DNA of 40,691 nt, taken from Wenjunlia vitaminophila DSM 41686 (GTDB lineage: Bacteria > Actinomycetota > Actinomycetes > Streptomycetales > Streptomycetaceae). Location: NCBI RefSeq assembly GCF_000380165.1, contig NZ_KB904687.1, positions 1 to 40,691 on the forward strand, written 5' to 3'. Made by a program: the position numbers and the translations under genes. Position 1 is the stretch's first letter; each line of letters starts with the position of its first letter. Below are positions 9,283 to 32,788 of this stretch, in pieces. Under the pieces are notes generated by a model, which saw nothing but the letters and a program-made list of their open reading frames with translations, was not told where the DNA came from and ran no database searches.

Positions 9283-9694
9283 GACGGACGAGACGGCCTG
9301 TACGCCGGGTTCTGTCTCCGTGGGGCCTTGCGGCCCCACGGGAGGCGGCCATCCATCTAGGGCTGCCGTTGCCGACAGCCTCGTGCGGTCTACCCGCGGA
9401 CTCGGGCGGGCAGCCCTCGGTCGTCCGCGCAGAGCCGTCTTGCGGCGGCTCCTCTTGACCTTGCTCCGGGTGGGGTTTACCGAGCCGTCCGGGTCACCCC
9501 GGACGCTGGTGGTCTCTTACACCACCGTTTCACCCTTACCGGGGGCCGAGGCCCCCGGCGGTCTGCTTTCTGTGGCACTGTCCCGCGGGTCACCCCGGGT
9601 GGGTGTTACCCACCACCCTGCCCTGTGGAGCCCGGACGTTCCTCGGCGGAGCCCGTCAGGGCCCCGACGCGACCGCCCGGCCGACTCGTCCGTC
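9283..9694 (-). ncRNA. rnpB: RNase P RNA, bacterial type A
   Basis: The minus strand carries the hallmarks of the catalytic RNA of RNase P, which matures tRNA 5' ends. Near the 5' end GAGGAACGUCCGGGCUCC is the conserved CR-I block. AGGGUGAAACGGUGGUGUAAGAG is present in the middle. UAGAUGGAUGGCCG followed by the ACAGAACCCGGCGUACAGGCC segment is the 3' conserved block. The first and last about 16 bases (GACGGACGAGUCGGCC and its near complement) form helix P1 and set the ends. At about 410 nt it matches the usual streptomycete length. It lies 35 bases downstream of the ABM-fold gene on the same strand. Confidence 0.96.
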
Positions 9695-25519: not shown

Positions 25520-25600
25520 GGAACCGGTGTCGCCACTGCCGTCCTGCCACCACGCGCCGCGCGCCACGGTTCGCGGACGGAAGCCGTTGAAGTGGGACGG

Positions 25601-26200
25601 ATGACCACGAAGACCAACTCAACACTGACGGAACGTCAGGAACAGAGACGCCGCCGCATCCTCCAGGTCAGCGCGCACCTCGCCAACCGGGGCGGCTTCG
25701 AGGCCGTCCACATGCGGGAGGTCGCCGAGCTGTCCGGCGTGGCCCTGGGCACGCTGTACCGCTACTTCCCCTCCAAGGTGCACCTGCTGGTCGCCATCAT
25801 GCAGGAGCAGCTCCAGCAGATGCACGAACGGCTGCGCAGGCGCCCGCCCGACGCCGGGGACCCGGCGGCGGCCGTCGCCGAGACGCTGACCCGCGCCTTC
25901 CGGGGAATGCAGCGCGAACCCCGTCTCGCAGAAGCGATGGTGCGGGCGTTGACCTTCGCCGACCGTTCGGTCAGCGCCGAGGTGGACACGGTGAGCCGAC
26001 TGACCACGGCCATCGTGCTGGACGCGATGGGCCTCACCGGACCGCCCACGGCGGAGCAGCTCTCCGTGGTCCGCGTCATCGAACACACCTGGCACTCGAC
26101 GTTGATCGCCTGGCTGTCGGGACGTGCCTCGATCGCGCAGGTCACGGTGGACATCGAGACGGTCTGCCGGTTGGTCACGCCGTCCCGGCCGAACCCCTGA
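25601..26200 (+). CDS. kstR: TetR-family repressor, KstR-like
   Basis: The 199-residue protein begins MTTKTNSTLTERQEQRRRRI and has the TetR helix-turn-helix (about residues 19-65: AHLANRGGFEAVHMREVAEL, then SGVALGTLYRYFPSKVHLLV), followed by an all-helical ligand domain. From memory this N-terminus is close to actinobacterial KstR, the repressor of the cholesterol-catabolism regulon released by sterol-CoA intermediates. Two KstR consensus palindromes in its promoter support the call. GTG 25592 is an alternative start. It is divergent from the GT4 operon. Ligand and full regulon are inferred. Confidence 0.85.
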   Translation: MTTKTNSTLTERQEQRRRRILQVSAHLANRGGFEAVHMREVAELSGVALGTLYRYFPSKVHLLVAIMQEQLQQMHERLRRRPPDAGDPAAAVAETLTRAFRGMQREPRLAEAMVRALTFADRSVSAEVDTVSRLTTAIVLDAMGLTGPPTAEQLSVVRVIEHTWHSTLIAWLSGRASIAQVTVDIETVCRLVTPSRPNP

Positions 26201-26321: not shown

Positions 26322-26555
26322 TCAGTCGTCCGGCGGGAACACCAGCTCGCCGCTGTCGGCGCGCCGCAGCGCGATGGCCTCCACCGGGCAGGTCTCGGCG
26401 GCGTTGAGCACCGCCTCCTCGGCGTCCACCTCGGCGTGCCGGGGCTCGGCCTTGTTGGACGCACCGAGCTGGAACCACTCGGGAGACGACCCGGCGCACA
26501 GGCCCGAGCCGATGCAGATCGAGTGGTCTACCTCCACCTTCCAGCGGTCACCCAT
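26322..26555 (-). CDS. Single-cluster ferredoxin
   Basis: The 77-residue protein starts MGDRWKVEVDHSICIGSGLC and ends with CPVEAIALRRADSGELVFPP. The Cys spacing (C14, C20 and CP near residue 59, with a Ser/Gly where a fourth cysteine could be) indicates a 3Fe-4S-type ferredoxin such as those that pass electrons to cytochrome P450s. AAAGGAA precedes ATG 26555. No P450 gene is in the window. Its position next to a KstR-like gene suggests a redox partner for lipid oxidation. Confidence 0.9.
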   Translation of the reverse strand: MGDRWKVEVDHSICIGSGLCAGSSPEWFQLGASNKAEPRHAEVDAEEAVLNAAETCPVEAIALRRADSGELVFPPDD

Positions 26556-26754
26556 CAGCCGTTCCTTTCCCTGCGTGGTCGGCGGCTCACTGGAGCCGTT
26601 TCTACTCCTGCCGCGAGGAGGATGCCTCGAGCCGGACCGCTGACGAACGGCGCGGCGCCCGCGGGGAGTCGGGGAGGCGCCACGGAGGGACCGGGCGACG
26701 GATGGCCGGCACCCGACACCTGGCACACCCCCCGGAAGCGGAACACCAGTACAG

Positions 26755-26925
26755 TGGCCCTGACAAGTTCACACGTTCATCCGTGCCCCAGCAGGAGAAG
26801 CCGGTGGGATTCCGGCACTGACCCGCAACCGTGTACCGGCGCCGCAGCCGCGTCAGCCGGGCAGTCGGAACGCCTGCTGGGACACGAGCGGCTTTCGGGT
26901 ACGGCAGTCGCCCTGCCCACCCGGC
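26755..26925 (+). ncRNA. Cobalamin riboswitch
   Basis: The core AAGCCGGTGGGATTCCGGC followed by ACTGACCCGCAACCGTG (about 26799-26835) is the conserved B12-box and flanking core of the adenosylcobalamin riboswitch. The 3' part includes GTCAGCCGGGCAGTCGGAAC and CCTGCTGGG, which closes on CCAGCAGG near 26787-26794. It lies about 130 bases before the first gene of the ECF operon. Binding cobalamin should switch the operon off. Boundaries are approximate. Confidence 0.88.
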
Positions 26926-26963
26926 ACCGTCGAGGTATACGGAGCTGAGCCCGGTGCTTCGCC

Positions 26964-27002
26964 CCGACGCGTCCCACCTGTCCCCAGGTGCGGGCGCGTC
27001 GG
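26964..27002 (+). promoter_or_regulatory. Long hairpin downstream of the riboswitch
   Basis: CCGACGCG (26964-26971) pairs with CGCGTCGG (26995-27002), and CACCTG (26975-26980) with CAGGTG (26985-26990) across loop TCCC, extended by C/G pairs between. It sits between riboswitch and first gene, so it is the likely expression platform (transcription stop, or structure near the ribosome site). No U run follows; the mechanism is unresolved. Confidence 0.55.
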
Positions 27003-27053
27003 CGCGTCGGCGGCGGTGCCCGGCATTGACCGCACTGAAAGGCATCTGCCGAC

Positions 27054-28421
27054 ATGTCCCGCCCGCCCCTGCCCCCCCAGCACCGAGACCGGCGACGCCC
27101 GTGGGGAACCGGTCCCCTGCGCGGACGCCCGCTCCGCCCGGGCCCGGCACGCCGCGCCGCGACCGTCCTCGCTCCCCTGCTGGTCGCGGGCTCCCTGGCC
27201 GCCGCGACGCCGACCGCCCACGCCGCCCCCTCCCCTAAGCCCCCGGCGACCACCGACCCCGCCCTGTACGGGTCCATGGACCCCACCTTCGACGGGGTGT
27301 GGCGGCAGTCCTACGCGTTGCTCGCCCTGGACACCGCCGGGGTGAAGCCCGCGCAGGAAACGGTGGACTGGCTGGTGGAGCAGCAGTGCGCCGACGGCGG
27401 CTTCACCGCGTTCCGCGCGGACGTCGCCCGGCCGTGCGTCGCCAAGGCCCAGGACACCAACGCCACCGCCGCCGCGGTGCAGGCCCTGGTCGCCCTCGGC
27501 GGGCACGACGCCGAGGTGGACCGGGCGACGGCCTGGCTGCGCACCGTGCAGAACAAGGACGGCGGTTGGTCCTTCAACCCGGGGAACCCCAGCGACACCA
27601 ACTCCACCTCCGTGGTCATCGGCGCCTTCGCCGCCGCGGGCACCGACCCGGCGAAGGTGACCAAGGCCGGCAAGGACCCCTTCGACGCGCTGCTGGGCTG
27701 GCAGCTCGGCTGCTCCGCGCGGGCCGCGGACCGCGGGGCCTTCGCCTACCAGCCGGACGACAAGGGCACGCTCTACGCCAACGACAGCGCCACCGCGGCG
27801 GCGGCGCTCGCCGCGTACGGCAGGGGGCTCCCGGTGCGCCTCGCCGACGTCGCCGAGTACCACAAGGAGCGGAAGGTCCAGGGCGACCTCGACTGCGCGG
27901 GGGCGGACCGGGACCGTGCGCTGGCCCCGCCGGCCGCGGCGGACCTCGCCATCGAGTACCTGGCCCGGCGGATGTCAGCCAACGGCTGGCACCTGGACTC
28001 CCCGCAGAAGGGCGCGGGACCGGACTTCAGCACCACGGTGCACGCCGGTCTCGCCCTGGCGGCCAGCTACCGGACCGGCCCCGCGGACAGCGTGCTGAAC
28101 TGGCTCGGCCGGGAGGCCGACGAGTGGGCCAAGGGCCAGCCGGCCGCCCTGGCCGAGCTGATCCTGCTCTCCCGGGCGACCGGCCACAACCCCCGCGAGT
28201 TCGCCGGCGGCGACCTGGTCACCCAACTCGTCAACCTGGGCCCCGAGCCGACGTCCGACCCCGCGGAGAAGACCACGAAGCCCGAGGGGAAGGACCAGGC
28301 CGCCGCGGACGAGGACGACGGCGACAGCGGCGGGCTCAGCGTCTGGCTGACCGTGGGCATCGGACTGCTCGTCGGGATCGGCGGCGGGTTCCTGATCAGC
28401 ATGCGCAGGAAGCGGGGCTGA
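27054..28421 (+). CDS. Surface alpha/alpha-toroid protein (transcobalamin-like), first gene of B12 operon
   Basis: This 455-residue protein has an N-terminal export signal (RRAATVLAPLLVAGSLAAAT, cleavage near AHA/AP), an alpha/alpha-toroid body with repeated DGG turns (QQCADGGFTAFRADVARPC, QNKDGGWSFNPGNPSDTNST, RGAFAYQPDDKGTLYANDSA), an acidic linker, and a C-terminal membrane helix (LSVWLTVGIGLLVGIGGGFL) ending in basic MRRKRG, so it is held outside the cell by its C-terminal anchor. It is annotated in Streptomyces as prenyltransferase/squalene-oxidase-repeat. The alpha domain of transcobalamin and intrinsic factor has the same alpha6/alpha6 barrel. Riboswitch control and the ECF genes point to cobalamin capture; this is inference. 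Confidence 0.85.
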   Translation: MSRPPLPPQHRDRRRPWGTGPLRGRPLRPGPARRAATVLAPLLVAGSLAAATPTAHAAPSPKPPATTDPALYGSMDPTFDGVWRQSYALLALDTAGVKPAQETVDWLVEQQCADGGFTAFRADVARPCVAKAQDTNATAAAVQALVALGGHDAEVDRATAWLRTVQNKDGGWSFNPGNPSDTNSTSVVIGAFAAAGTDPAKVTKAGKDPFDALLGWQLGCSARAADRGAFAYQPDDKGTLYANDSATAAAALAAYGRGLPVRLADVAEYHKERKVQGDLDCAGADRDRALAPPAAADLAIEYLARRMSANGWHLDSPQKGAGPDFSTTVHAGLALAASYRTGPADSVLNWLGREADEWAKGQPAALAELILLSRATGHNPREFAGGDLVTQLVNLGPEPTSDPAEKTTKPEGKDQAAADEDDGDSGGLSVWLTVGIGLLVGIGGGFLISMRRKRG

Positions 28422-29086
28422 TGCGTCGCCCACCCCGCGCCGCCACCGCGGTGCTCCTCGGGTTGCTGCTCACGGCGCTCGCGGTGCTCGCCGCGGGCCC
28501 CGCGCACGCCACCGGGTACCGGTACTGGTCGTTCTGGCACGCGGACGGGGACGGCTGGACCTACGCCCAGCAGGGACCCGGATCGGCGCGGCCCGACGAC
28601 GGGTCCGTGGACGGCTGGCGGTTCGCGATCAGCGAGGACCGCGCCAGTGAGGCCAAGACGCCCCGGGGGGCCGCGAACTTCAACGCGATCTGCGCCGACA
28701 CCCCGGCCGTGTCCGGCCGCAAGCGGGTGGCGCTGGTCATCGACTTCGGCACCGCGGGCGACGCCCCGGACGGCCGGCAGCCGCCACCCCAGCGCACCGC
28801 GTGCGCCGTGGTCGGCCGGAACGCCACGTCGGCCGACGCCCTCGCCGCGGTCGCCGGGCCGCTGCGCTACGACTCCCACCTGCTGCTGTGCGCCATCGCC
28901 GGCTACCCGAAGTCGGGCTGCGGGGAGACCGTGTCGGGCCGGGACCCGGCCGCGTCCGCCTCGTCGGAGGCGCTCGACGGGACGGACGACTCGGACGGCC
29001 TGAGCGTGGGGCTCTGGGTCGGTCTGGCGGTGGTGGTCGCCCTGGGCTCGGCCGCGGTGTGGCAGAGCCGCCGTCGCCGGTCCTGA
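28421..29086 (+). CDS. SCO2322-family surface protein
   Basis: The 221-residue protein (ATG overlapping the previous stop by one base) has a signal peptide (TAVLLGLLLTALAVLAAGPA, then HA), an external domain of about 140 residues and a C-terminal membrane helix (LSVGLWVGLAVVVALGSAAV) with a basic tail. The external part has GWTYAQQGPGSARPDDGSVD followed by GWRFAIS, and four Cys (CADT, CAVV, CAIAGYP, SGCG), which could form two disulfides. The GW..Y..(DG)..WRF pattern recalls the DUF4430/transcobalamin beta-domain, but I cannot confirm this. It is always next to the toroid protein and ECF genes, as far as I recall. Confidence 0.8.
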   Translation: MRRPPRAATAVLLGLLLTALAVLAAGPAHATGYRYWSFWHADGDGWTYAQQGPGSARPDDGSVDGWRFAISEDRASEAKTPRGAANFNAICADTPAVSGRKRVALVIDFGTAGDAPDGRQPPPQRTACAVVGRNATSADALAAVAGPLRYDSHLLLCAIAGYPKSGCGETVSGRDPAASASSEALDGTDDSDGLSVGLWVGLAVVVALGSAAVWQSRRRRS

Positions 29087-30246
29087 TGGCCAGGCGGCCC
29101 GCCCTGCACGCGGGGGCGTGGTGGTTGTGGGCCCTCGGGCTCGCCGCCGCCGCGTCCCGCACCACCAACCCGCTGCTGCTGCTCCTGCTGCTCGCGGTCG
29201 CCGGGTACGTCGTCGCCGTCCGCAGGACCGACGCGCCCTGGGCGTTCTCGTTCGCCGCGTACGTGCGGTTCGGGGCGCTGGTCCTGGCCATCCGGCTGGT
29301 CTTCGCGACGCTGCTGGGTTCCCCACTGCCCAGCGTCACCGTGCTGTTCACCCTCCCCGAGGTGCCGCTGCCCGAATGGGCCCAGGGGGTGCGCATCGGT
29401 GGTCCGGTGGCCGCCGAGGGCCTGCTCTTCGCCCTCTACGAGGGGCTGAAGCTGGCCGTGCTGCTGATCTGCGTCGGCTCGGCGAACTCCCTGGCGAACC
29501 CGGCGCGGCTGCTGCGCTCACTGCCGGGCGCCCTCTACGAGGCCGGGGTGGCGGTGGTGGTGGCGATGACGTTCGCGCCCCACCTGGTCGCCGACGTGCA
29601 GCGGCTGCGCACCGCCCGGCGGCTGCGCGGACGCAACGACCGGGGCGCGCGCTCGGTGCTCCAGGTCGCCCTGCCGGTGCTCGAGGGCGCCCTGGAACGC
29701 TCCCTGGCGCTGGCCGCCGCCATGGACACCCGCGGATACGGGCGGGCCGCTCCGGTGCCGGCCGCGGTGCGGCACACCACCTCCGTCCTCGTCCTGGGGG
29801 GCCTGCTCGGGGTGTGCCTCGGCACCTACGGGCTCCTCGCCGACCAGCGGGACCTGTTCGGGCTGCCGGTGCTCGCCGTGGGGCTCGCCGCGGCGACCGC
29901 CGGACTCGCGCTCGGCGGGCGGCGGGCGGTCCGCACCCGGTACCGGCCCGACCCGTGGGGCGTCAGGGAGTGGCTGGTCTCCGGGTCGGGACTGGCCGTG
30001 GCGGGGCTGCTGATCTGGGCAGGACGGCACCAGCCGGACGCCCTGCACCCGCAGACCGTCCCGGTCACCGCGCCCTCCCTGCCCCTGCTCCCGGCCGCGT
30101 TCGTGCTGCTCGGCCTGGTCCCCGCGGTGGCGGCACCCGCGCCCGCGCGGGCCCCGCGCCCCCACGGCGACCCCGACCGGGGCGCCCGCCGGGCCACCCG
30201 TCACCCCGTCCCCGGGAACGACTCCGAGAAGGGCCACCGCCCGTGA
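29086..30246 (+). CDS. ecfT: ECF transporter T component
   Basis: The 386-residue integral membrane coupling protein has hydrophobic segments in the first 120 residues, then the cytoplasmic coupling region with DVQRLRTARRLRGRNDRGAR and the ARS/ARG-like motif LAAAMDTRGYGR, which contacts the ATPase pair, and more membrane segments near the C-terminus. Most EcfT proteins are about 260 residues, so this has an extended C-terminus. The ATG at 29086 shares a base with the previous stop (TGATG), and its end overlaps the ATPase start by GTGA. Confidence 0.92.
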   Translation: MARRPALHAGAWWLWALGLAAAASRTTNPLLLLLLLAVAGYVVAVRRTDAPWAFSFAAYVRFGALVLAIRLVFATLLGSPLPSVTVLFTLPEVPLPEWAQGVRIGGPVAAEGLLFALYEGLKLAVLLICVGSANSLANPARLLRSLPGALYEAGVAVVVAMTFAPHLVADVQRLRTARRLRGRNDRGARSVLQVALPVLEGALERSLALAAAMDTRGYGRAAPVPAAVRHTTSVLVLGGLLGVCLGTYGLLADQRDLFGLPVLAVGLAAATAGLALGGRRAVRTRYRPDPWGVREWLVSGSGLAVAGLLIWAGRHQPDALHPQTVPVTAPSLPLLPAAFVLLGLVPAVAAPAPARAPRPHGDPDRGARRATRHPVPGNDSEKGHRP

Positions 30247-31865
30247 TCCACTTCAACCAGGTCTCCGTCGTCTACGCCGATGCCCGGACCCCGGCCCTCG
30301 ACGGGGTGGACCTGACCGTGCCCGAGGGCGAGCTGTGCCTGCTCGTCGGCCCCTCCGGGGCGGGCAAGTCCACCCTGTTGGGCGCCGTCAGCGGGCTCGT
30401 CCCCCACTTCACCGGCGGCACCCTGCACGGCACGGTCACCGTGGACGGGCGGGACACCCGCACCCACCGGCCCCGGGAACTGGCCGACCTGGTGGGCACC
30501 GTGGGGCAGGACCCGCTGGCCCACTTCGTCACCGACACGGTGGAGGACGAACTCGCCTACGGCATGGAGTCGCTGGGCATCGCCCCGGACACCATGCGCC
30601 GCCGGGTGGAGGAGACCCTGGACCTGCTGGGCCTCGCCGACCTGCGCCACCGTCCGCTGTCGACCCTCTCCGGGGGCCAGCAACAGCGCGTCGCCATCGG
30701 GTCGGTGCTCACCCCGCACCCCAAGGTCCTGGTCCTGGACGAACCCACCTCGGCGCTGGACCCGGCCGCCGCCGAGGAGGTCCTGTCGGTGCTGCAACGC
30801 CTCGTCCACGACCTGGGCACCACCGTGCTGCTGGCCGAACACCGCCTGGAACGGGTCGTGCAGTACGCCGACACCGTGGTGCTGCTGCCCGGCCGGGGCC
30901 GGCCCCCGGTCATCGGGTCCCCCGCCGAGGTCATGGCCGTCTCCCCGGTCCACCCCCCGGTGGTCGGCCTCGGCCGCGCCGCCGGCTGGTCGCCCCTGCC
31001 GCTGTCGGTGCGCGACGCCCGGCGCCGCGCCTCGGAGCTGCGCGCCCGGCTCGTCGGGGAACCCCCGGCGAGCCGGGCCGCCGAGGCGGCCGAGCCGGTC
31101 GCCGAGCCGGTGGCCACCGTGACCTCCCTCGGGGTCCTGCGGGGAACCGTGCCGGCCCTGGACGGCGTCACCCTCGGCCTGTCCCGCGGGGAGGTCGTGG
31201 CGCTGATGGGGCGCAACGGCGCCGGCAAGTCCACCCTGCTCCGGACCCTGGTCGGGCTGCACAAGCCCACGTCCGGCCGGGTCACCGTCGGTGGCGTCGT
31301 CCCGCACCGGACGCCGGCCACCGAACTGACCCGCCGGGTCGGCCTCGTTCCCCAGGACCCCCGCGACCTGCTCTACGCGACCACGGTCCGCGGCGAGTGC
31401 GCCAACGCGGACGTCGATGCGGGGGCCGCCCCCGGCACCTGCCGGGACCTGGTCCTGCGCCTGCTCCCCGGCATCGACGACGACGTCCACCCCCGGGACC
31501 TGTCCGAAGGCCAACGACTGGTCCTCGCGCTAGCGGTGGTGCTGACCGCGCGTCCCCCGCTGCTGCTGCTCGACGAGCCCACCCGCGGCCTGGACTACGC
31601 CGCCAAGGCCCGCCTAGTGACGGTGGTCCGCGAACTCGCCGAGCAGGGCCACACCACCGTGCTGGCCACCCACGACGTGGAGCTGGCGGCGGAACTCGCC
31701 GATCGGGTGGTGATCCTGGCCGACGGCGAGGTGGTCGCCGACGGCCCGACCGCGGACGTGGTCACCTCGTCCCCGGCGTTCGCCCCCCAGGTGGCCAAGG
31801 TGCTGCACCCCCAGCCGTGGCTCACCGTGCACCAGGTGGAACGCGCGCTGGGGGCGGCGTCGTGA
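30243..31865 (+). CDS. ECF transporter fused ATPase (A1-A2)
   Basis: The 540-residue protein has two complete ABC ATPase domains. In domain 1 the Walker A is GPSGAGKST (about residue 36), signature LSGGQQQRVAIGS, and Walker B VLVLDEPTSALDP. Domain 2 has GRNGAGKST (about residue 325), signature variant LSEGQRLVLAL, and LLLLDEPTRGLDY. The fusion of EcfA1 and EcfA2 is common in actinobacteria and supplies ATP hydrolysis for the B12-type transporter. GTG 30243 overlaps the EcfT stop; its own stop overlaps the S-component start (GTGA). Confidence 0.95.
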   Translation: MIHFNQVSVVYADARTPALDGVDLTVPEGELCLLVGPSGAGKSTLLGAVSGLVPHFTGGTLHGTVTVDGRDTRTHRPRELADLVGTVGQDPLAHFVTDTVEDELAYGMESLGIAPDTMRRRVEETLDLLGLADLRHRPLSTLSGGQQQRVAIGSVLTPHPKVLVLDEPTSALDPAAAEEVLSVLQRLVHDLGTTVLLAEHRLERVVQYADTVVLLPGRGRPPVIGSPAEVMAVSPVHPPVVGLGRAAGWSPLPLSVRDARRRASELRARLVGEPPASRAAEAAEPVAEPVATVTSLGVLRGTVPALDGVTLGLSRGEVVALMGRNGAGKSTLLRTLVGLHKPTSGRVTVGGVVPHRTPATELTRRVGLVPQDPRDLLYATTVRGECANADVDAGAAPGTCRDLVLRLLPGIDDDVHPRDLSEGQRLVLALAVVLTARPPLLLLDEPTRGLDYAAKARLVTVVRELAEQGHTTVLATHDVELAAELADRVVILADGEVVADGPTADVVTSSPAFAPQVAKVLHPQPWLTVHQVERALGAAS

Positions 31866-32788
31866 GCCCGGCGGCGGCGCGCCCACCGGAACGGGAACCC
31901 GGCACGGGCGGCCCCGCGCCCCGCGGGGCGCGGCAGGTGCGACCGGTGCGCCTCGGGGCGCGTTCCGTCGTCGCCCTGCTGCTGGTCAGCGCCGTCGGGG
32001 TGGCCGCGTTCTGCTGGCCGCTGCTCGCCGACCCCCAGTCCAGCCTCGCCCACTCCGCCGACGCGCCCTGGCTGTTCGCGGCGCTCCTCCCGCTGCTGCT
32101 CGGGGTGGTGGTGGCGCAGATATCCGACGGCGGCATGGACGCCAAGGCGGTCGCCCTGCTCGGGGTGCTCTCGGCCGTCGGTGCCGCGCTGCGTCCCCTG
32201 GGCGCCGGCACCGCGGGCCTGGAGCCGATGTTCTTCCTGATGGTGCTCTCCGGGCGGGTCCTCGGCCCGGGCTTCGGGTTCGTCCTCGGCGCCGTGTCGA
32301 TGTTCGCGTCGGCGCTGCTCACCGGCGGGGTGGGCCCGTGGATGCCGTTCCAGATGCTCAGCATGGGCTGGGTGTCGATGGGCGCCGGCCTGCTCCCCGG
32401 GCCGCACACGCTGCGCGGACGGGGGGAGTTGGCGCTGCTCGCCGGCTACGGGGTGGTCTCCTCGGTGCTGTACGGCACCGTCATGAACCTCCAGGGCTGG
32501 CCCTACCTGGCCGGGATGAGCAGTTCCCTGTCGTTCCACCCCGGCGACCCGGTCGGCGACAACCTGGTGCGCTTCGCGGCCTACTGCCTGACCACGTCGC
32601 TGGGTTGGGACCTGCCCCGGGCCGCGCTCACCGCCGTGCTCACCTTCACCCTCGGCCCGCCCCTGCTGCACGCCCTGCGCCGGGCCACCCGCCGCGCGGC
32701 CTTCGACGCACCGGTGCGGTTCCGGCCGGCCACCCCGGGCACGGGCGGGGACCAGGACCGGCCCGCGCCCGGAGGCGGAACGCCCTAG
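31862..32788 (+). CDS. ECF transporter substrate-binding S component
   Basis: The 308-residue protein has a 35-residue Pro/Arg-rich head and about six membrane segments (ARSVVALLLVSAVGVAAFCW, LFAALLPLLLGVVVAQI, AVALLGVLSAVGAALRPLG, LEPMFFLMVLSGRVLGPGFG, LGAVSMFASALLTGGVGPW, QMLSMGWVSMGAGLLPG). These are features of the DUF6580/CbrT-like S components. The B12 riboswitch on the operon argues for a cobalamin or corrinoid substrate. Start GTG 31862 overlaps the ATPase stop. Its TAG stop shares CTAG with the convergent gene's stop. Confidence 0.88.
   Translation: MSPAAARPPEREPGTGGPAPRGARQVRPVRLGARSVVALLLVSAVGVAAFCWPLLADPQSSLAHSADAPWLFAALLPLLLGVVVAQISDGGMDAKAVALLGVLSAVGAALRPLGAGTAGLEPMFFLMVLSGRVLGPGFGFVLGAVSMFASALLTGGVGPWMPFQMLSMGWVSMGAGLLPGPHTLRGRGELALLAGYGVVSSVLYGTVMNLQGWPYLAGMSSSLSFHPGDPVGDNLVRFAAYCLTTSLGWDLPRAALTAVLTFTLGPPLLHALRRATRRAAFDAPVRFRPATPGTGGDQDRPAPGGGTP

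Follow-up and report, generated by a model that had tools for sequence, protein, structure and literature searches.

An operon of five genes in Wenjunlia vitaminophila DSM 41686 probably mediates the uptake of corrinoids (vitamin B12) by a transporter of the energy-coupling factor (ECF) type, which would be fed by a two-chain, transcobalamin-like clamp. This reading is drawn from comparisons of sequences and predicted models. The operon occupies positions 27054-32788 on the forward (+) strand of the window, by which we mean the whole stretch of 40,691 nucleotides that was analysed (contig NZ_KB904687.1 of assembly GCF_000380165.1). The window is contig 53 of 111 in a genome of 6.4 Mb with an estimated completeness of 99.2%. 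The genes, each overlapping the next by a stop/start overlap, encode in this order an anchored alpha/alpha toroid, an anchored small beta protein, the coupling protein EcfT, a fused double ATPase and an S component, and a cobalamin riboswitch lies in front. An earlier note on this DNA had named these elements and read them as a possible split-transcobalamin system; all of them are present, and comparative evidence from the beta domain, the riboswitches and the linkage to ECF genes supports its interpretation. What it had missed is that both domains are, according to the profile alignments, circularly permuted. Nor did it note that, of the two surface proteins, the beta protein accompanies the transporter more constantly than the toroid does.

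Relatives were taken from the phylum and the class of the window genome and from a set of named loci. A search of 198 genomes of the phylum for the SCO2322 family, to which the beta protein belongs, gave a match in 32 at E 0.001, nine of them above the family cut-off; 31 of these genomes furnished the 32 phylum loci, G108 having been dropped with its 5-kb contig. Within the class, the family is found above cut-off in 103 of 296 genomes, from which 18 class loci were hand-picked. The 80 named loci comprise 79 from Streptomyces and one from Wenjunlia. At least 557 stretches encode the family.

Circular permutation of the two surface proteins

The small beta protein (28421-29086) matches the SCO2322_fam model NF040672 with 221 bits against a cut-off of 85, over positions 1-144 of 144; the description of this family gives no function. 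Hydrophobic segments at the N-terminus and the C-terminus (the latter at about 28991-29068 and followed by basic residues) are those of an exported, anchored protein, and the GPS-CTERM anchor model reaches 25.8 bits, below its cut-off of 28. No Pfam family scores above its cut-off on this protein, and neither the window protein nor ten relatives gave a direct match to DUF4430 (PF14478). In the AlphaFold2 (AF2) model, with a predicted local distance difference test score (pLDDT) of 79.7, three strands are followed by a linker with a short helix and then by strand-strand-helix-strand-strand. Compared with the transcobalamin-type beta-grasp topology, as given in the available text of PMC1796856 and PMC1949818, this is the order that a cut ahead of strand 3 would produce. 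The window protein thus has 3-4-5-1-2-helix-hairpin (strands 3-5 at about 28514-28633, the linker at about 28637-28702, and strands 1-2, helix and hairpin at about 28700-28918) instead of the canonical 1-2-helix-hairpin-3-4-5. The same exchange is visible in the motifs. Canonical relatives, found in other families and at a locus on contig 32 of the same genome, have a V-V-D strand, a cysteine strand, a helix, a hairpin and then YW..W.Y..G..GW.F, the segment with which the SCO2322 proteins start.

Profile comparisons point in the same direction. The permuted alignment A3 contains 80 rows, the window protein together with 79 of the 80 named beta domains (L115 was left out), and its diversity is low, with an effective number of sequences (Neff) of 1.75; A4 holds 20 canonical beta rows, and A5 was built from 28 of 30 fetched actinobacterial Pfam-DUF4430 loci, L188 and L203 having been dropped because their frame was wrong at contig edges. 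Columns 7-47 of A3 align with 94-135 of A4 (score 72.4, E 3e-12) and columns 67-139 with 16-86 (score 45.0, E 3e-7), that is, in swapped order. Rotation of A3 at residue 46, 56 or 67, in the predicted linker, yields one colinear alignment with A4 and scores of 109.4-109.6, as compared with 71-91 for seven other start points; 100 column shuffles stayed at or below 19.9 and a reversed alignment gave 9.2. A4 in turn is colinear with A5 over 111 columns (score 30.4, E 1e-4, probability 57%; 100 shuffles at most 19.4), and A3 against A5 scores 29.8. Finally, A5 matches two solved structures, RUMGNA_00854 (3u7z) at E 0.001 and transcobalamin-1 (4kki) at E 0.0099; searches of solved structures with the permuted and the canonical beta alignments gave nothing informative. 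The link from the window protein over A4 and A5 to transcobalamin is thus transitive, and it is weaker in the later steps. On these profiles and the predicted model, the SCO2322 protein is a circular permutant of a transcobalamin-type (DUF4430-like) beta-grasp domain, a relation that is new here. The earlier note had seen a likeness to the DUF4430/transcobalamin beta-domain in a GWTY..DDG..GWRF segment: profile comparisons above the shuffles bear this out, while a direct DUF4430 match is lacking.

The toroid gene (27054-28421) and the beta gene are open reading frames (ORFs) that share a single base, 28421, and encode two separate chains. The toroid protein covers all 405 positions (1-405) of the SCO2321_fam model NF053823 with 467 bits, the cut-off being 300, and here too the description is without a function; the Pfam families SQHop_cyclase_C, Prenyltrans and TED_complement are matched just above their cut-offs. 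The AF2 model of the ectodomain (27237-28253) is a clear alpha/alpha toroid with a mean pLDDT of 93.8. A C-terminal hydrophobic segment (about 28326-28403) is followed by basic residues. The protein is probably exported. Of the earlier description as an exported toroid with a C-terminal anchor, the fold and the anchor stand, while the signal peptide is a reading by eye of an N-terminus that lies below the hydrophobicity threshold. Four cysteines are invariant in the toroid alignment (74 of 74 rows) and four in the beta alignment (80 of 80), which would fit exported proteins with disulphides.

The toroid alignment A2 (74 permuted rows: the window and, after an identity filter, 73 of the 80 named toroids) matches A6, with its 18 canonical toroid rows, in two swapped segments that score 224.7 and 112.9, followed by weaker, repeat-shifted alignments. 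Rotated at residue 226, A2 gives a single alignment of 292 columns with a score of 327.9, and 40 shuffles did not exceed 26.2. In the window, the first part (27258-27872) corresponds to the second part of canonical toroids and the second part (27885-28211) to their first, with the joint at about 27867-27914. By these alignments, the SCO2321 toroid is circularly permuted relative to the toroids that go with unpermuted beta proteins, among them the toroid of a second riboswitch-linked operon on contig 32 of this genome. A toroid recognized by eye in a class locus (L239:8558-10276 of G488, - strand) seems to carry a long insert rich in proline, alanine and threonine at the joint. A second toroid-like ORF, 7-8 kb away in L035, L036, L037, L039 and L040, was first taken for a paralogue and then set aside; by eye, in three of the five that were read, it looks like a separate alpha/alpha-barrel protein.

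Both domains are permuted in all 80 named loci, in the phylum loci L035-L041 and in the window. Among the other phylum loci, 18 toroids and 23 beta proteins are in canonical order; furthermore, L066 combines a permuted toroid with a canonical beta protein, and L043 has a permuted beta protein with no toroid beside it. The L063 toroid gave no clear order, and the L062 beta protein fell below the threshold. A FastTree, midpoint-rooted and built on concatenated sequences of EcfT, ATPase and S component from 39 loci (ten of the 80 named loci among them; L052, L060 and L065 left out) and the window, places the 18 doubly permuted members together in one clade (support 0.999).

Riboswitch and gene neighbourhood

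The leader of the operon resembles an aptamer of the adenosylcobalamin (AdoCbl) type. RF01482 matches 26769-26914 (core about 26798-26832) with 37.2 bits and E 4e-5 for 801 bases in a permissive search, without reaching the gathering score of 50. The default Rfam search at gathering score did not detect this riboswitch, and RF00174 reached 26 bits on this leader in a whole-genome scan, against a cut-off of 31.5. Since one sub-threshold match is weak, the leaders of relatives were tested as well. A sense-strand match of the cobalamin clan lies upstream in 28 of the 32 phylum loci (E at most 0.1; 11 at gathering score); L149, L150, L153 and L171 gave none, the upstream sequence searched being only 407 bases in L171 (it was 1,159 bases in L168). 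Among the class loci the match is present in 15 of 18, nine at gathering score. The three without one are L234 and L235, which lack the EcfT and S genes, and L257, where the search probably missed the true leader because a toroid recognized by eye lies upstream of the centred gene.

A core pattern drawn from the leaders of relatives, with a maximum score of 31, gives 30 for the window leader. For 78 of the 80 named loci enough upstream sequence was available, and 74 of these leaders score above the best of 231 background stretches (23); L094, L127, L131 and L146 are at or below it. Of the phylum loci without a model match, L149 reaches 26, and L150 and L153 only 23. As the pattern came from such leaders, the score measures conservation and is not an independent discovery. 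A strict regular expression for the riboswitch hits 44 of the 78 leaders and nothing in 2.2 million bases elsewhere in the loci, both strands counted; several of nine inspected misses were small variants, and the position-count core score was adopted for this reason. The resemblance to a riboswitch is more than chance, and the earlier statement that a cobalamin riboswitch precedes the operon holds, through its conservation in relatives.

The three genes that follow the surface proteins encode the transporter. EcfT, a CbiQ-like transmembrane coupling protein (29086-30246), matches PF02361 with 28.4 bits (cut-off 25). The fused double ATPase (30243-31865) matches PF00005 (ABC_tran) in two stretches with 200 bits, and the ECF_ATPase models with 305 and 302 bits, under their cut-offs of 330 and 315. 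The S component, the substrate-binding membrane protein (31862-32788), matches PF12822 with 37.7 bits (cut-off 30.7); a single-sequence search of solved structures gave its best possible S-component match only at E 0.94, and no solved CbrT. The operon combines EcfT, a pair of ATPase domains and an S component of its own, as is the arrangement in a group I ECF transporter, and these genes adjoin those of the surface proteins just as the earlier note had said.

This linkage is widely kept. All three ECF genes are present in 29 of the 32 phylum stretches; L060 has two of the three and L052 none, both loci lying at contig ends, and in L063 the ECF genes are on the opposite strand. The permuted beta protein occurs in all 18 class loci, 16 of which have EcfT and S genes beside it. 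In the named loci the toroid and the beta protein are present without exception (80 of 80), and the five-gene order is kept in 67; in 12 of the remaining 13 a contig end interrupts the set, L108 being the exception. The toroid gene adjoins the beta gene in 27 of the 32 phylum loci.

Proposed function and its alternatives

The system would most likely work as follows. At low cellular adenosylcobalamin the leader RNA would permit expression of the operon, if it is an off-switch as its riboswitch class suggests. Both surface proteins would be exported, fixed to the membrane by a single C-terminal segment each, and form the halves of a clamp, with the toroid as alpha domain and the permuted beta-grasp as beta domain. 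A corrinoid would be captured between them outside the membrane and passed to the S component, which the EcfT-ATPase module would then move inward, as is established for ECF transporters. The toroid would be a frequent second half, usually encoded beside the beta protein in the phylum sample, sometimes elsewhere under a B12 riboswitch of its own, and often undetected; in the Streptomyces-type lineage both halves would be circular permutants. A more specific version is put forward tentatively, with rather less assurance than the reading above: the two proteins may form a heterodimeric clamp of two permuted transcobalamin-type domains, a tethered external capture device for the ECF transporter, and the double permutation, confined to one well-supported clade among the loci of the tree, may have shifted the tether relative to the corrinoid-contacting parts and so have allowed hand-over to the S component. 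ECF transporters are usually regarded as needing no extracellular binding protein.

The physiology of the genome is in accordance with such a role. CbiC and CbiJ gave no match in this draft genome, in which three synthesis families were searched, and CobQ reached only 20 bits against a cut-off of 310. CbiC was found in 19 of 21 genomes searched, one of the same genus included; this genome and G206 lack a match. A B12-dependent ribonucleotide reductase, NrdJ, is encoded on contig 20 (630 bits), and a cobalamin riboswitch above cut-off (74 bits; L002:1501-1771, that is G000:C2:194831-195101, - strand) precedes the large subunit of a ribonucleotide reductase other than NrdJ. As judged from these three families in a draft genome, the organism is probably a B12 auxotroph. 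B12 uptake would matter here, since corrin-ring synthesis seems to be lacking while a B12-dependent ribonucleotide reductase is present. Contig 32 of the same genome carries a sister operon for a canonical beta protein, EcfT, ATPase, S component, toroid and a DUF4430 protein. The latter, of 184 residues, matches Pfam DUF4430 (PF14478) above cut-off; the toroid has a sorting-type tail (LAETG model 19.6 bits, cut-off 30), and the riboswitch of this operon is again sub-threshold (RF00174 24.3 bits; AdoCbl-II 33.2 bits against 36.5).

A number of observations weigh against the clamp. The comparison of predicted structures with transcobalamin that the earlier note had proposed gave a divided result for each protein taken alone. 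The toroid model has the toroid fold, and its nearest solved structures among the matches listed are terpene cyclases, with Z up to 23; complement fragments rank lower. Transcobalamin is missing among the matches listed for this model (50 from Foldseek and 50 from VIA), which does not exclude a likeness, and intrinsic factor was met only at E 0.75, with canonical toroids as the query. As far as the model can tell, the relation of the toroid to the alpha domain of transcobalamin is seen at the level of the fold. The element order of the beta model fits a permuted beta-grasp, and the model found no match in the Protein Data Bank (PDB), either with Foldseek at E 0.001 or with VIA at Z 2; order-dependent aligners struggle with permutants, yet the missing match is an absence and not support. 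Furthermore, the window riboswitch and 17 of the 28 phylum matches lie below the Rfam gathering score. L065 has a toroid and a beta protein with no ECF gene within reach, and it is not at a contig end; in L234 and L235 (G331 and G475) the permuted beta protein occurs with neither an EcfT or S gene nor a riboswitch match, possibly reflecting a different use of the domain. In the tree, L043 with its permuted beta protein is placed outside the doubly permuted clade, so that the beta permutation may have arisen more than once.

The toroid itself is the less regular element, which also counts against a clamp of two halves. It is not found beside the beta gene in five of the 32 phylum loci (L043, L045, L047, L052 and L062; in L052 the search could cover 6 kb upstream of the beta gene). 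Three of the genomes behind L043, L045, L047 and L062, namely G134, G102 and G166, carry a toroid elsewhere, and G062 has none anywhere in a genome search at E 0.001, while its beta protein and ECF genes are present. Among the 18 class loci, 12 have no toroid detected next to the beta gene, the others being four detected cases, a weak match in L238 and the one seen by eye in L239. As the toroid often goes undetected where the ECF genes stay, it is best described as a frequent second piece, and the beta protein as the component that accompanies the transporter more constantly. Four genomes of 1.3-1.8 Mb (G238, G269, G478 and G462, with L222, L223, L231 and L237) combine a compact permuted beta protein with ECF genes and a cobalamin riboswitch, and no toroid was detected nearby.

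These data leave some room for the view that the beta protein alone serves ECF-mediated corrinoid uptake and that the toroid is an accessory, either binding corrinoids on its own or acting at the surface as an enzyme that releases or modifies bound ones. Ten of the 16 class loci that pair the permuted beta protein with ECF genes are without a detected toroid, G062 has a beta protein and ECF genes with no toroid found, and the toroid's nearest solved relatives are mostly enzymes among the matches listed. We nevertheless think it unlikely, given that the two genes are neighbours in most phylum loci and occur together in every named locus, and that a toroid found apart has a cobalamin riboswitch of its own upstream on the same strand in three of three cases, one above the gathering score. 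DXDD is the catalytic motif of class II terpene cyclases; it is not in the window toroid domain, and in the alignments it is present in two of 74 permuted and two of 18 canonical rows, so that an identity as terpene cyclase was rejected for the window protein. In published bacterial relatives, moreover, a toroid and a soluble-ligand-binding beta-grasp (SLBB) domain can share one chain, according to the available text of PMC1796856.

It is improbable that the surface proteins bind, and the operon imports, another B12-related substrate such as cobalt, a lower-ligand base or another cofactor. Cobalamin riboswitches do also govern cobalt transporters, for example cbiM of S. lividans in the available part of PMC8079986, and the single-sequence search did not tie this S component to any characterised one for B12. 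Yet the S component matches PF12822 and not a CbiM family, cobalt for corrin synthesis would serve little without CbiC and CbiJ, and a transcobalamin-type domain argues for a corrinoid. That the toroid and the beta protein are unrelated surface proteins which merely share an operon, their likeness to transcobalamin being coincidental, is very improbable: the failed direct DUF4430 matches and the beta model without a PDB match would suit it, but the profile scores exceed those of shuffles, neighbourhood and riboswitch are conserved across many families in the phylum sample, and the sister operon encodes a true DUF4430 protein. Both the cobalt importer and the chance neighbourhood were rejected as leading readings on this evidence. 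Corrinoid uptake through a two-chain clamp is therefore preferred.

Some further features were noted by the way. Upstream of the operon, a TetR-type regulator (25592-26200, +) and a small ferredoxin (26322-26726, -) were recognized by eye, and the window also contains a bacterial RNase P RNA of class A (9285-9688, - strand). A cobalamin riboswitch of 86 bits (L001:1501-1728, that is G000:C38:38207-38434) lies directly before an ORF for a hotdog-fold acyl-CoA thioesterase (1776-2210), an unexpected target. A second, divergent cobalamin riboswitch of 91.6 bits stands beside a canonical beta-ECF operon (L156:826-1019 of G171, - strand), an extra antisense match, and a glycine riboswitch is found near a stand-alone toroid gene (L217:54-174 of G102, - strand).

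Relation to known systems

The proposal would give a testable function to two families of surface proteins that have so far had none and that are common in Streptomyces and beyond. It would relate the two domains of the animal B12 carriers to a bacterial system of separate chains, offer natural circular permutants of both domains for studying clamp closure, suggest that some ECF transporters use external capture proteins, and indicate how bacteria that lack corrin synthesis are likely to obtain B12. The open PubMed Central literature, a scope outside which most subscription papers and all preprints lie, yielded no account of a form with separate chains and both domains permuted. A single paper surfaced on SCO2321-SCO2325, and the part available concerns a peptide for skin delivery. 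The accessible text of the re-annotation of S. lividans TK24 (PMC8079986) gives two cobalamin riboswitches, before cbiM and cobD, and does not mention the leader of the present operon. In NCBIfam, the window proteins are members of NF053823 and NF040672 above cut-off, and the descriptions contain no link to transcobalamin.

Among characterized transporters, ECF-CbrT of Lactobacillus delbrueckii is of the same type and has been proposed for cobalamin (PMC5997447); in contrast to the present system, it is not credited with an extracellular clamp of its own in the portion of that paper available. Transcobalamin, intrinsic factor and haptocorrin resemble the window proteins in the combination of an alpha/alpha toroid with a beta-grasp domain as a putative corrinoid clamp, and the A5 profile matches transcobalamin-1, while for the window toroid the likeness seen is one of fold. 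They differ in being one secreted chain, where here there are two membrane-anchored chains. Moreover, the window domains are both permuted relative to the canonical actinobacterial forms, and their partner is an ECF transporter.

The closest precedent is the work of Burroughs et al. in 2007 (PMC1796856), who, in the text available, defined the SLBB superfamily, pointed to transcobalamin-like proteins of bacteria that are exported, are fused to toroids and are encoded alongside CbiO/CbiQ, and proposed a role in B12 scavenging. These DUF4430 systems share with the one described here an exported, often anchored and toroid-associated protein, a CbiO-like ATPase, a CbiQ-like protein and the same predicted role, and some of their operons contain a second SLBB protein, as does the sister operon. 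In that text the toroid is described as fused, and low-GC Gram-positives, planctomycetes and euryarchaea are the organisms named for this clade; neither "circular" nor "permut" appears as a word in it. As compared with that account, the present system adds the actinobacteria, two separate anchored chains, the apparent permutation of both domains, and the evidence from riboswitches.

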